A stretch of 64,000 nucleotides of DNA from Acidobacteriota bacterium (lineage in GTDB: Bacteria > Acidobacteriota > Holophagae > Acanthopleuribacterales > Acanthopleuribacteraceae), in contig JAGQSC010000015.1 of the NCBI GenBank assembly GCA_020439745.1, positions 124,001 to 188,000 of the forward strand, given 5' to 3'. Under the pieces are notes generated by a model. That model did not search any database. It had not been told where the DNA came from and was given only the letters and a program-made list of their open reading frames with translations. The first letter of the stretch is position 1, and the number at the start of each line of letters is the position of its first letter. Positions 13,969-19,690 of the stretch are shown piece by piece. Position numbers and translations under genes: made by a program.

Positions 13969-16900
13969 TTAAGAAGAACGAGTTGCAGTGGCACCGACGG
14001 CCAAAATCGATGCCAGTCGCTGCGCCACAATCACTGAGTCCTCGCCACGTCTTCGGGCATAGTCGGCAACTTGATCGGCGCCAATGCGGCCCACGCCAAA
14101 GTATTGGGCTTGTGGGTGAGCGAAGTAGAAGCCAGACACGGACGAGACAGGCACCATGGCATAGCTCTCAGTTAATTCGACACCGATACTCTGTGAGACG
14201 TTCAGTAGCTTCCAAATATCTCTTTTCAATGCGTGATCGGGACAGGCGGGATATCCGGGTGCCGGGCGTATGCCTCGATAACGTTCACGAATGAGCGCAT
14301 CGTTGTCCAATGCTTCATCGGGTGCATAACCCCACAGTTCCTTCCTAACACGTTCGTGAAGGTGTTCGGCAAAGGCCTCAGCTAACCGATCGGCCAGCGC
14401 TTTCAAAAGGATAGCGCTGTAATCGTCGTGCTCTTTTTCAAAGGCTCGCACATGTTCGTCGATTCCGAATCCCGTGGAAACCGCGAAACAGCCAAGGTAG
14501 TCACTGTTGCCTGAAGCTGCTATGAAGTCGGCAAGCGACAGATTGGCTTTCTGTTTATCACCTTGTTGACGGAGTTGAGGCAAACATATTTCGTCAGGAC
14601 CAACGAAAAGGTCGTCACCCTCTGAATAGGCTTCAAAAAAGCCTATTACGGCCCGTGCTTCCAACCAACGGTCATCCATCAATTGACGCAACATACATTG
14701 GGCATCGTCGAACAATTTTCGTGCCTGTTCCCCTTGTCTTGGGTGTTTGAGGATTTCCGGGTATCTACCTTTCAACTCCCATGCAGCGAAAAACGGTGTC
14801 CAATCAATACGTTTAGCGATTTCTTCCAAATCGTAGTCCAGATAGACGCGGGTCCCCAAAAATGATGGTTGGGTCATCGAGTATGGATTGCAAACCAGCT
14901 TGCGGTTACGTGCCTCAGCGAGGGTTAAGAGTGGCTTTTGATTATCTTTAGCCAAGTAATCATCACGGCGCACCTGGTAGGCATGCTTGGTTTCTTGCAC
15001 ATAGTTGTCGCGCTGTTCGCCAAGCAGCTTTTGCACCACGGTCACCGCCCGTGACGCATCGTGGACATGAATGACCGGGGCCGAATAGACAGGATCGATT
15101 TTCACGGCCGTATGGGCGACAGAAGTGGTCGCACCCCCAATTAAGAGTGGGATCATGAGGCCTTGTCGACTCATTTCACGCGCAACCCCTACCATTTCCT
15201 CGAGAGACGGAGTGATGAGTCCCGACAATCCGATCAAATCTGCCTGGTGAGACTTCGCGGTTTCAATGATGCGTTCAGCGGGTACCATGACCCCTAAATC
15301 GATGACCCGGTAGCCATTGCATTGAAGGACGACACCGACAATATTTTTGCCGATGTCGTGCACATCGCCTTTGACGGTGGCTAGCACAACCACGCCCTGA
15401 TTGGAGGCTTCATGACCTCCCTCTTCCATAAATGGTATCAGGTAGGCAACCGCTTTCTTCATAACCCGTGCCGATTTCACCACCTGAGGCAGGAACATTT
15501 CGCCCTTGCCAAACAGGTCACCCACCACACTCATGCCGGCCATCAGCGGGCCCTCAATCACATCCAGTGGGCGGTCGACTTCAGTACGTGCCTGTTCCGT
15601 ATCCTGCTCGATATAGGCATCGATGCCATGCACCAATGCATGGGAGAGTCGCGCCTGTACATTCCAAGATCGCCATTCCTGGCTGGCACCGACCCTATCT
15701 TGCCGGTCGTGAGTGGCATATTGATGGGCGACTTCCAAAAGCCGTTCTCCGGCATCGGCACGCCTTGCCAAGATGACGTCTTCCACACGGTTCCGCAGAT
15801 CAGGGTCCAGATCCTCGTAAATGGCTAGTTGCCCGGCATTGACAATCCCCATGGTCATGCCACGTTGAATGGCATGGAAGAGGAATACTGAATGCATGGC
15901 CTCGCGCACAAAATCGTTGCCTCGGAAGGCAAAGGATACGTTGCTTACACCACCACTGATGTTTGCATCAGGGTACTTTTCCTTAATCATCTGGATTGCG
16001 TCCAAAAAAGCTTTGGCCAGCGTATCGTGCTCGGCAAGCCCCGTGGCCACGGCAAAGATGTTTGGGTCGAAAATGACGTCTTCGAAGGGGAAACCCACCT
16101 CATCCCGCAACAGCCGCAGTGCGCGTTCATAAATCGCAACCTTACGCGCTGCGGTTTCAGCTTGACCCTGTTCATCGAAGGCCATGACCACAATGGCTGC
16201 GCCTAAATCCATCACCTGACGAGCACGGGAGACAAACGTATCCTCTCCATCCTTGAGACTCAGCGAATTGACAATTCCCTTACCCTGGATGTGCTTGAGA
16301 CCTGTGATCAACACCCGCCAATCCGATGAATCAACCATGACCGGTACCCGTGCAATCTCGGGTTCTGAAGCGATGGTATTGAGAAATCGAGCCATGGCCT
16401 CACAACCATCGAGCATCCCCTCGTCCATATTGACGTCGATGATTTGCGCACCGTTGATCACCTGATCACGGGCTACCTCCACTGCTGCCTGGTAGTCACC
16501 GCGAAGGATCAGTTTTCGGAAGCGCGACGAACCAGTTATGTTCGTTCGTTCGCCCACATTAATGAACAGGCGAGAGGCATCTAGAATGCAGGGCTCCAAG
16601 CCGGATAGGCGCGCCACGGGACGCACTTCGGGCACAACTCTTGGCTCAATGGATTGCACGGCCTTTTGGATCGCAGCGATGAATTCCGGACTGGTACCGC
16701 AACAGCCCCCAACCAGATTGACCAGGCCTGATTCAGCGAATTCGCGCAGAATCCGAGCCATACGTTCTGGTGTTTCGTCGTAACCGCCGAAGGCGTTGGG
16801 CAGTCCCGCATTGGGGTGAACCGACACAAAGGTGTCCGCCAACTTGCTGAGCTCTGCCACGTATGGCCTCAGTTGGTCGGCTCCCAGGGCGCAGTTCAGT

Positions 16901-17613
16901 CCCACAATGAGCGGTTGGGCATGGCGCACCGCGTACCAAAACGCTTCTAACGTCTGCCCGGAAAGCACGCGACCTGAGGCGTCGGTAATCGTACCCGATA
17001 TCATCATCGGTACATCTGAGTTCCGCTCCCGTATTTCCGCACGACACGCAAATATGGCTGCCTTGGCATTTAACGTGTCGAAAATAGTTTCGATGAGTAG
17101 CACGTCGGCTCCGCCATCCAGTAAGCCGCGAGCAGCTTCGCGATAGGTGTCTGCGAGTTCATCAAATGTGACATTGCGAAACTCGGGCCGATTCACATCA
17201 GGGGAGAGTGAGCACGTGCGACTGGTGGGTCCCAACACGCCAAACACAAATCGCGGTCGGCTGGGGTCCTGGGCTGAGCATGCATCAGCCACTTCGCGGG
17301 CTATCGCCGCGCCGGAACGATTGAGTTCGTACACATGTGCGGATAAGCCGTAGTCCGATTGAGAAACGGATGTCGCGTTGAATGTATTGGTTTCAACGAT
17401 ATCTGCGCCTGCTTCAAAATACTGGCGATGAATCGCGGCAACCACATCGGGACGCGTTAGGTTCAACACGTCGTTGTTCCCTCTTAAATCAAGGTGATGT
17501 TTGCGAAATCGATCCCCTCTGAAATCTGACTCCGTCAATCCAAAGCCTTGAATCATGGTACCCATGGCGCCATCTAGCACCAGGATGCGTTCCTTAAGTA
17601 ATTGTCGAATCAT
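13969..17613 (-). CDS. metH: Cobalamin-dependent methionine synthase
   Basis: 1214 residues, the full length of four-module MetH. It transfers the methyl group of methyltetrahydrofolate to homocysteine through cobalamin. In order: homocysteine/zinc module ([10 protein letters not shown] at the start; zinc ligands in GLNCALGAD and GGCCGTSPE), pterin-binding module ([11 protein letters not shown]), B12 module with DVHDIGKNI (cobalt-ligand His about residue 752), and AdoMet reactivation module ([18 protein letters not shown]). The frame extends upstream, but ATG 17613 (MIRQLLKER) begins one base after the regulator's stop and gives the usual N-terminus. It is probably co-transcribed with, and controlled by, the ArsR-methyltransferase gene. 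Confidence 0.97.
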
Positions 17614-17614
17614 G

Positions 17615-18526
17615 TTAAGCCACACCGGCCGATGTCTGTTGTTTGTTGCCACAAGCAACCCACAAATCAATCCGTGGGCCCTGAACCGTGCGGGCCTCGC
17701 CTATTTGAACGGAACGCTCATTAAACCACGCACGCAGAGCCACGGGATCCATGCCGTTCTCGCCCAATCGTTCAATAATGACCACCCTTCCATGGGGCCG
17801 CAAAAGGCGAGAAATCTCGCCAATTACCTCAGTGGGCTCGTCAGCATGAATCAACACGCGGTCCAGACATATCGTATCGAAACTCTGATTGGGAAAGTGC
17901 AAGTGGTGCATGTCGCCCAATCTGACAGCCACGTGGTCTGCAATGCCTGCTTGTTGAATTTGAGCTCTTGCCACACGGAGCATCTGCGGTGAGATGTCAA
18001 TACCAACGGCGTGTGTGGCGCGCTTGGCCAAATACTGCAGCATACCGCCCGTACCAGTCCCAATTTCCAGCAATTCTCCCAAAGCCGACGTTCCAAGGAT
18101 CTGGTTCACAGCGGATTCGATGTCTTTGATCGGAGGTTGTTCTTTGCGCGCGGTCGCCAATTCGCGTTCCAACTGCTGCATAATGGCGTCGGCTTCGCGA
18201 GCGCGGTTCTGTAACTCTTCATCCACACGCGATCGGTCCAACAGGAACAACGAGTCATCCTCAGGGACCAACTTCAGAATGGCTTGAGCAATGTCCCGTC
18301 CTGGTCTTTGCCTTGCCATACGGAAATAGGCGAAAGTTTGCTCTCGAAAACGTTCCAACACGCCCGCATCGCACAGCAGTTTCAGGTGCCGAGACACTCT
18401 GGGCTGACTTTGGCCTAGCACCCGTGTTAGTTCGGTCACTGTAAGCTCAGCATGGGCACAAATGGCCAGTAGCCGCAGCCTTGTCGGTTCAGCCAATGCG
18501 CGCAGCGCATCCAATAGTGGACTCAC
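17615..18526 (-). CDS. ArsR-family regulator fused to SAM-dependent methyltransferase (SahR-like)
   Basis: 303 residues. The N-terminal winged helix (about 1-85: [15 protein letters not shown], then [15 protein letters not shown]) is ArsR-type. The C-terminal part (about 140-295) is a class I methyltransferase with [16 protein letters not shown] and a [10 protein letters not shown] acidic strand. No metal-binding Cys cluster is seen in the winged helix, so metal sensing is unlikely. GTG 18526 is chosen because GGAGG lies six bases before it. The stop is one base from metH. ArsR-methyltransferase proteins beside SAM-cycle genes are known as SahR (S-adenosylhomocysteine-sensing); assigning that role here is inference from architecture and neighbour. 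Confidence 0.88.
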
Positions 18527-18543
18527 GGTCAACCTCCGGCCCC

Positions 18544-18572
18544 ATGTTGGCACGGTGCGAACTTCATGTCAA
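18544..18572 (-). promoter_or_regulatory. Predicted promoter of the ArsR-methyltransferase/metH operon
   Basis: On the minus strand a perfect -35 TTGACA (plus 18567-18572) is followed after 17 bases by CAACAT (plus 18544-18549), a weak -10. The -35 shares its first two bases with the end of the perfect palindrome, so a protein bound there would block RNA polymerase. Predicted transcription start is near 18537, giving a very short leader. Confidence 0.5.
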
Positions 18573-18592
18573 TATAAAGAACTCTTTATATT
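18571..18592. promoter_or_regulatory. Perfect 10-2-10 palindrome, candidate ArsR-family operator
   Basis: AATATAAAGA and TCTTTATATT form perfect 10-base arms around AC. Inverted repeats of this form, AT-rich and with a two-base centre, are the usual ArsR/SmtB operators. It abuts the -35 of the regulator gene and overlaps the stop codon of the membrane-protein gene upstream, so autoregulation together with metH control is likely. A 9/10 match to one half (CCTTTATATT) also occurs at 19672-19681. Confidence 0.65.
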
Positions 18593-19373
18593 AATCGAGT
18601 GATGCCATTCGTCGCAGCTCCAATTGGCGGAAACGAGATTGGCATCCCACCCACACACCCATTCCAAGACACAAACCCAAAGCACCCACCGCCAATGATG
18701 GACCCGAGGTGGTCGTCCCCCAAGCCAGCAGACTCGATACCAGCCCAATCAAGCCAATCGCCAGCATCCCCAGTCCCGATGCCAAAGCCAACCATCGCGC
18801 CCGACCCAAGCCGAGCGAGACACCAGCAATTGCACCCAATATGCCCAACATGGAGCCAAGAATCGCAACCCAACCTCCGCCCAACCTCATGCTGCTGCTG
18901 GTCAGGGTTATGGGACCCGCCACCATATGACCACTCCCAATCGCTACCAAGTTGAGCTCAAGTTGCACAGGTGCGGGCACCTTGCCCATCGTGTCAAAAG
19001 GCAACACAAATTGGTGATCCTGCAGCTCTCCCTGCAACTTACCCATCGGTCCAGAAGCAGCAAGCGTACGTGTAAAGTACCGCGACCCATCCGCAAACAC
19101 GCTCCACATTTCGAGGAAGGCCTCTCCTTCAAAGGAGCCGTCTAGTTCACCGGATAATCGATATTGCGTCCCCTTTATCTCTGGATTTTGCCAAACAAGC
19201 AGCGGATACGAGGCGTCTTGATCAAATTCAAGTCGCACCCAGGTTACCCCATCGTGGTCCATTAAGGTGCCGTTCTGCAGGGCACCTATCTGCTGAGCAC
19301 GTACCCAAAAATCCGGTTCTCCGTTGGATTCGTTCAAATCACTCCAGCAAAGCATCATCCATATGGCGATCAT
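18591..19373 (-). CDS. Membrane protein paired with DUF2089 regulator
   Basis: 260 residues. A short hydrophobic N-terminus (MIAIWMMLCW) looks like a signal or anchor, then an extracytoplasmic beta-rich domain (about 20-175), then four Gly/Leu-rich helices (about 175-250). ATG 19373 is preceded by AAAGGAGCGACA. It overlaps the end of the DUF2089 gene by 35 bases, so the two are probably co-translated. I know no function; small HTH protein plus membrane protein is the layout of regulator/anti-regulator pairs, which is inference. Confidence 0.65.
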   Translation of the reverse strand: MIAIWMMLCWSDLNESNGEPDFWVRAQQIGALQNGTLMDHDGVTWVRLEFDQDASYPLLVWQNPEIKGTQYRLSGELDGSFEGEAFLEMWSVFADGSRYFTRTLAASGPMGKLQGELQDHQFVLPFDTMGKVPAPVQLELNLVAIGSGHMVAGPITLTSSSMRLGGGWVAILGSMLGILGAIAGVSLGLGRARWLALASGLGMLAIGLIGLVSSLLAWGTTTSGPSLAVGALGLCLGMGVWVGCQSRFRQLELRRMASLD

Positions 19374-19662
19374 TGTCGCTCCTTTCAAGGCGGTACAAAG
19401 TGAGCACATTGCGAAAGACCTCGCGATCCATCTTCCCTTCCGCGAACGCGGTTCTCAGCGCTCGCTCCAAAGGCGACCTATTTTGAAAACGCTCCCATAT
19501 TTCAATCTTCGAGATCAATCGATCGAGACGCAGCCTGACGGTTGGATAGGACACGCCATAATCAGCCGCCACCTGCTTCAGTGAGCCGGAAGCCAAAACA
19601 AACCTGCGGATAAAGGCCAAGTCCTCTGCATCCAGTCCATCGAGCCAGGGCGCATCGTGCAT
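19339..19662 (-). CDS. DUF2089-family helix-turn-helix protein
   Basis: 107 residues. Nearly the first half (WLDGLDAEDLAFIRRFVLAS, then VAADYGVSYPTVRLRLDRLI) is the helix-turn-helix region of the DUF2089 family, read here without the family's usual N-terminal zinc ribbon. The rest is helical and charged. The start is ATG 19662, directly after an in-frame GTG, with AAGGTGG upstream. It is the first gene of a two-gene unit with a membrane protein, under a good sigma70-type promoter. Probably a transcription regulator; target unknown. Confidence 0.75.
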   Translation of the reverse strand: MHDAPWLDGLDAEDLAFIRRFVLASGSLKQVAADYGVSYPTVRLRLDRLISKIEIWERFQNRSPLERALRTAFAEGKMDREVFRNVLTLYRLERSDNDRHMDDALLE

Positions 19663-19690
19663 CACGAACCACCTTTATATTTCTTAAACC

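Follow-up and report, generated by a model that had tools for sequence, protein, structure and literature searches.

A question is raised by the genome of a probable acidobacterium in which metH is directly preceded by a gene that joins an ArsR-type winged helix to a methyltransferase-like domain: which genes does the fusion protein control, through which DNA code and in response to which kind of ligand? We find it probable, at roughly 0.83, that the protein is a SahR-family repressor with DNA specificity of the alphaproteobacterial type, that it controls both its own sahR–metH operon and a metF operon, and that a SAM/SAH-type ligand alters its DNA binding. The assignment to the SahR family is made by architecture, operator and regulon, and it carries no claim that the protein senses SAH. 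The acidobacterial host, part of the original prediction, agrees with the gene content of the window (the whole stretch of DNA analysed, 64,000 nucleotides), since two of its proteins match TIGR03436 acidobact_VWFA, one of them above the cut-off.

The sahR–metH operon and its palindrome

Read along the minus strand, the locus consists of an open reading frame (18591–19409), a palindrome, a TTGACA hexamer, sahR, one spacer base and metH (Table 1). The predicted fusion one base 5' of metH is borne out by both the domain matches and the coordinates. The sahR product matches HTH_5/ArsR (3.1e-10, residues 14–58) and Methyltransf_11 (1.8e-23, residues 153–250) in searches against Pfam/NCBIfam, the winged helix spanning residues ~1–72 and the sensor residues ~95–303, and metH reaches 1951 bits against the methionine synthase equivalog. 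A single base, 17614, lies between the sahR stop codon (17615–17617) and the metH ATG (17611–17613); with this 1-bp gap, and with the gene order kept in a congener, metH is probably co-transcribed with sahR. The most likely sahR start is the GTG at 18526, with its GGAGG upstream.

Table 1. Coordinates within the window of the sahR–metH operon and its control elements
Feature	Position	Strand	Basis or remarks
sahR	17615..18526	-	ArsR-type winged helix + class I methyltransferase-like sensor; 303 aa; GTG start
metH, cobalamin-dependent methionine synthase	13969..17613	-	NF007024/TIGR02082 above cut-off
Ribosome-binding site GGAGG for sahR	18533..18537	-	Sequence, 6 nt 5' of GTG
Probable -10 element CAACAT	18544..18549	-	17 bp from -35; same hexamer and same spacing in congener
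-35 element TTGACA	18567..18572	-	TT common to operator; kept at 4/4 operator sites in two species
Operator, perfect 10-bp arms, AATATAAAGA-AC-TCTTTATATT	18571..18592		Sequence; second genomic copy; congener; alphaproteobacterial match

Two small genes occupy the region upstream of sahR (18591–19665), one for a 272-aa protein of unknown function and one for a DUF2089/sigma-like HTH protein; the congener carries both in identical order. We know of no link between either of them and methionine.

The perfect palindrome was found exactly where it had been predicted. The consensus -35 hexamer said to abut it is also present, but it overlaps the palindrome rather than adjoining it, sharing its last two T's. 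The -10 element of this promoter is weak, and in the congener the spacer between the two hexamers has diverged while CAACAT is kept. Although the palindrome is the sole perfect 10-bp-arm inverted repeat in the window, sequence of the same dinucleotide composition is expected to contain ~1.2 such repeats per 64 kb with spacers of up to 8 bases, and 0.25 with a 2-base spacer. Because of this chance expectation, the palindrome alone is weak evidence, and we rejected it as an argument by itself. Two of its bases also belong to the stop codon (18591–18593) of the open reading frame upstream, as might be seen if it were a fortuitous inverted repeat or that gene's terminator and not an operator. We give that reading almost no credence: the arms are A+T-rich, no T-run follows, and the same motif recurs at metF, in the congener and in alphaproteobacteria. 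What is very hard to ascribe to chance is the position of the one other copy in the genome, in front of metF, together with the retention of both copies in the congener.

The metF operon and conservation in a congener

The whole genome (5.135 Mb in 65 contigs, about 97% complete) was scanned for the motif with as many as 3 mismatches allowed. It contains two copies, one at sahR–metH and one at metF; the reversed-pattern control returned 0, and for a 20-mer version of the scan the corresponding control returned 1 match. The original prediction had anticipated hits at ahcY, metK or metF; the scan delivered metF and no unrelated genes. The second operator, AATATAAAGACATTTTTATGTT, differs at 2 positions and lies directly 5' of metF, which is followed by the homoserine O-succinyltransferase gene metX, metB and a fused aspartokinase/homoserine dehydrogenase gene (AK/HSD), with gaps of 9, -11 and -4 bp; cysH comes 287 bp beyond AK/HSD. 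The metF promoter is of textbook form, TTGACA-N17-TATGAT, again with its TT common to the operator, and the likely metF start is at MHVSFEFF, preceded by GAGG.

The same arrangement is found in one congener, whose single sahR ortholog is 66% identical. It retains the sahR–metH pair and the metF-metX-metB-AK/HSD operon, each with its operator (1 mismatch in one operator and 3 in the other), and at all four sites in the two species the first two bases of TTGACA lie inside the operator, in the same register. In five other genomes of the family the ArsR–methyltransferase fusion is absent, and metH has no such neighbour. Apparent motif matches in genomes G002 and G006 of this family proved on inspection to lie away from methionine genes, and the many matches in some other members of the class were equalled by reversed-pattern controls.

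Taking dimerization, DNA binding, repression and ligand response from what is described for the ArsR and SahR families, we envision that a SahR dimer would bind the palindrome and, since the -35 hexamer begins inside the operator, would block RNA polymerase at its own sahR–metH promoter. An identical block would act at one further genomic place, the metF-metX-metB-AK/HSD operon. SahR, under autoregulation, could thereby set methionine supply at the level of methyl-THF, homocysteine and methionine synthase, and a SAM/SAH-type ligand held in the methyltransferase-like domain may alter DNA binding, through either release or engagement. Release induced by SAH, as described for Desulfovibrio SahR, would be the default expectation.

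This regulon also bears on a quite different identity for the protein, that of an arsenic-type ArsR or a regulator of the ArsR–ArsM enzyme kind standing beside metH by chance. Its HTH does belong to the ArsR family, and its methyltransferase domain weakly matches ArsM models; yet these matches fall far below the cut-offs (NF008823, 45.8 bits against 263), and regulon, operator, the adjoining metH and the context of the ortholog all belong to the SAM cycle, leaving the arsenic identity extremely improbable.

The SahR-family regulon proposed here differs from the usual one in its extent. According to PMC4239095, ahcY and metK belong to the core SahR regulon in Proteobacteria, present in more than 70% of genomes with SahR, and so usual and not universal. 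Here metK adjoins ahcY in each of the two species, and their leader has no SahR site within 6 mismatches in either; searches with Rfam gave no riboswitch match at metK–ahcY, metF or sahR. The missing ahcY/metK sites make the protein an atypical SahR member without excluding its membership. The metK–ahcY leader of the window's genome contains an inverted repeat, GTCGACAAT...ATTGTCGAC (sequence L084, ~1390–1500).

Resemblance to alphaproteobacterial SahR

The best full-length relatives of the protein are found in Pseudomonadota, at 36–44% identity and up to 208 bits. Among 299 sampled Pseudomonadota genomes, 64 contain homologues at E <=1e-20, most of them within the same range of identity. A scan of contigs with a peptide pattern from the protein gave four loci, none of them true relatives (a Magnetospirillum arsenic ArsR operon and methyltransferase-only matches); two of the genomes concerned were used further as named alphaproteobacteria. 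SahR has been described in alphaproteobacteria (PMC4239095 and PMC8877191), and comparison with known SahR motifs, suggested along with the original prediction, gives agreement with the motif 5' of alphaproteobacterial SAM-cycle genes: the window operator is identical to it at 18 of 20 positions. In Mesorhizobium carmichaelinearum the 20-mer occurs, with 1–3 mismatches, 5' of bhmT, ahcY, metH and sahR-metF, and in Magnetospirillum moscoviense 5' of ahcY and sahR-metF; reported SahR targets in rhizobia include bhmT, ahcY, metH and sahR (PMC8877191). A fifth M. carmichaelinearum site with 2 mismatches (sequence L087, ~1501–1520) has an IS110-type transposase gene beside it and an adenosine-kinase-like gene upstream, and is not near any recognised target. 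Matches of at least 17/20 stand upstream of 35 of 39 Pseudomonadota sahR genes (30 from the sampled genomes, the others from named records), and none was seen in shuffles. The sahR-metF arrangement is also seen in named Rhizobium, Sinorhizobium, Sphingomonas and Novosphingobium records.

The protein side of this DNA code is preserved as well. The alphaproteobacterial-type recognition helix is kept (Q39, S40, Q41, P42, R43, S45, R46, H47, L48 and K49), together with R59 and E62, and Q39, S40 and P42 are seen in none of 29 other homologues from the host's own phylum. In the best tree the window protein is nested in a Pseudomonadota clade (100/99), but a place just outside that clade, at its base, is not rejected (p-AU 0.107 and 0.35). 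A p-AU of 0.013, obtained with the window and phylum sequences constrained together, was discarded, as that constraint also held Leptospira apart. Horizontal transfer from within the alphaproteobacteria would be the natural explanation, suggested by the best tree, the recognition helix, the operator and the presence in one genus only, but it is not significant by AU test and we make no claim of it.

In the literature that we found, descriptions of SahR regulons are confined to Proteobacteria, and the locus had been predicted to extend the circuit to an acidobacterium. A SahR-family case is probably present here; the prediction proved too modest, since about a quarter of the phylum as sampled has related genes, of a different subtype, beside ahcY, metH or metK. 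Matches at E <=1e-15 are found in 68 of 297 genomes, the window's included, and nearly all are full-length ArsR–methyltransferase proteins at ~25–35% identity. Every one of the 29 phylum loci inspected adjoins ahcY, metH and/or metK, and the homologues form subfamilies with candidate operators of their own. Control of the SAM cycle by SahR-like proteins is thus probably widespread in the phylum, the window's genus standing apart in its use of the alphaproteobacterial code. The significance of the locus lies partly in this: an operator code of alphaproteobacteria would be in use in one genus of another phylum, beside a phylum-wide SahR-like family with other operators.

For these subfamilies, of which we found no description in the literature searched, the candidate operators are ATCyATnnATGTAGATTyATgGAT just upstream of 11 metH-linked genes, ATCGACaaATCnGGATnngATGAT just upstream of 7 ahcY-linked genes and ATCCGGATTTACGGAT just upstream of 7 other ahcY-linked genes. 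In Leptospira interrogans (records L097 and L130, upstream of 5947 and 2947), ahcY and metH come after a sahR-like gene, and this gene is preceded by a perfect palindrome, ATATCAAGATATCTTGATAT, with half-sites spaced as in the window and TCAAG in place of TAAAG.

The sensor domain and comparison with known systems

The two halves of the protein have fared differently. With the Pseudomonadota set the DNA-binding domain shares 57% identity, inside the range among the set's own members, whereas the sensor is 28% identical to the sensors of that set, well below the lowest mean of any set member against the rest, 38.7%. Between the two congeneric species the sensor is 58% identical and the HTH 92%. 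The sensor retains GxGxG, the SAM-binding motif, and D177 of the nucleoside site. It has lost H256, a histidine conserved in 39/39 Pseudomonadota and 29/29 phylum homologues, along with H226, F116 and the element H..E.LR....H.HR.LGF; every one of the 68 other homologues examined, drawn from two phyla, has an element, including a histidine, that is missing here. Because the losses are seen in both congeners they are not a sequencing artefact, and because of them we treat a response to SAH as putative. An AlphaFold model from the single sequence had a pLDDT of 37 and was not used.

One reading of this divergence is that repressor and operators are the same and the effector has changed, the protein no longer responding to SAH and SAM or another ligand serving as co-repressor, as proposed for SamR, so that methionine synthesis comes under end-product feedback. 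We regard it as a substantial minority possibility. It fits a regulon that covers methionine formation from aspartate/homoserine plus methyl-THF and leaves out ahcY, as in SamR, and it fits the loss, in both species, of elements otherwise invariant while the DNA-binding domain is conserved. However, the SamR regulon keeps metK, which here also lacks a site; metX-metB-hom is found in some ordinary SahR regulons too, according to PMC4239095; GxGxG and D177 are kept, and SAH may still bind; and the missing elements may have had a role in catalysis or stability and not in specificity. Alternatively, the sensor may have degenerated, leaving a ligand-blind autorepressor that sets a constant metH/metF level. 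Fast sensor divergence between the two species would follow from this, but an open frame, the SAM-binding motif and a length of 303/307 aa are conserved and the match to Methyltransf_11 is strong, and we consider such degeneration unlikely.

Within the SahR-family reading, we offer as a tentative and somewhat doubtful proposal that, in this genus, a SahR with DNA specificity of the alphaproteobacterial type kept its operator and had its sensor rebuilt for a different ligand such as SAM, with ahcY and metK falling outside the regulon. If true, a relief valve of the SAM cycle would have become an end-product control of methionine synthesis. A conserved DNA-binding domain joined to a diverged sensor makes the protein a clean test case for the use, and re-use, of methyltransferase folds in sensing SAM or SAH.

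Set beside known systems, the protein shares architecture and SAM-cycle role with Desulfovibrio SahR, the experimentally tested SAH-responsive regulator (PMC4239095 and PMC8877191); compared by description, operators of the delta and gamma types are unlike those of the alpha type (PMC4239095). SamR of Xanthomonadales, a predicted regulator, is likewise metH-linked, with a regulon of metF, metB, metX2 and hom and not ahcY, a composition that led Leyn et al. to argue for SAM as the ligand of SamR; it differs in a 24-bp operator of other sequence, in including metK and in being ~30% identical to SahR (PMC4239095). The SamR-type 24-bp operator, which shares ATC-N10-GAT with the gamma SahR motif, is not what the window has: its operator is ATATAAAGA-NN-TCTTTATAT. 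Other SahR-like genes of the phylum have the same architecture; they are 27–35% identical and differ in recognition helix and in candidate operator. From alphaproteobacterial SahR, with its sahR-metF operons, the window's sahR differs by its pairing with metH, the lack of an ahcY/metK site and a strongly diverged sensor from which a conserved element is gone. With that same SahR of Rhizobiales and Rhodospirillales it has in common the ArsR and methyltransferase domains, the recognition helix, the operator ATATAAAGATATCTTTATAT, predicted autoregulation, and metH and metF as targets.
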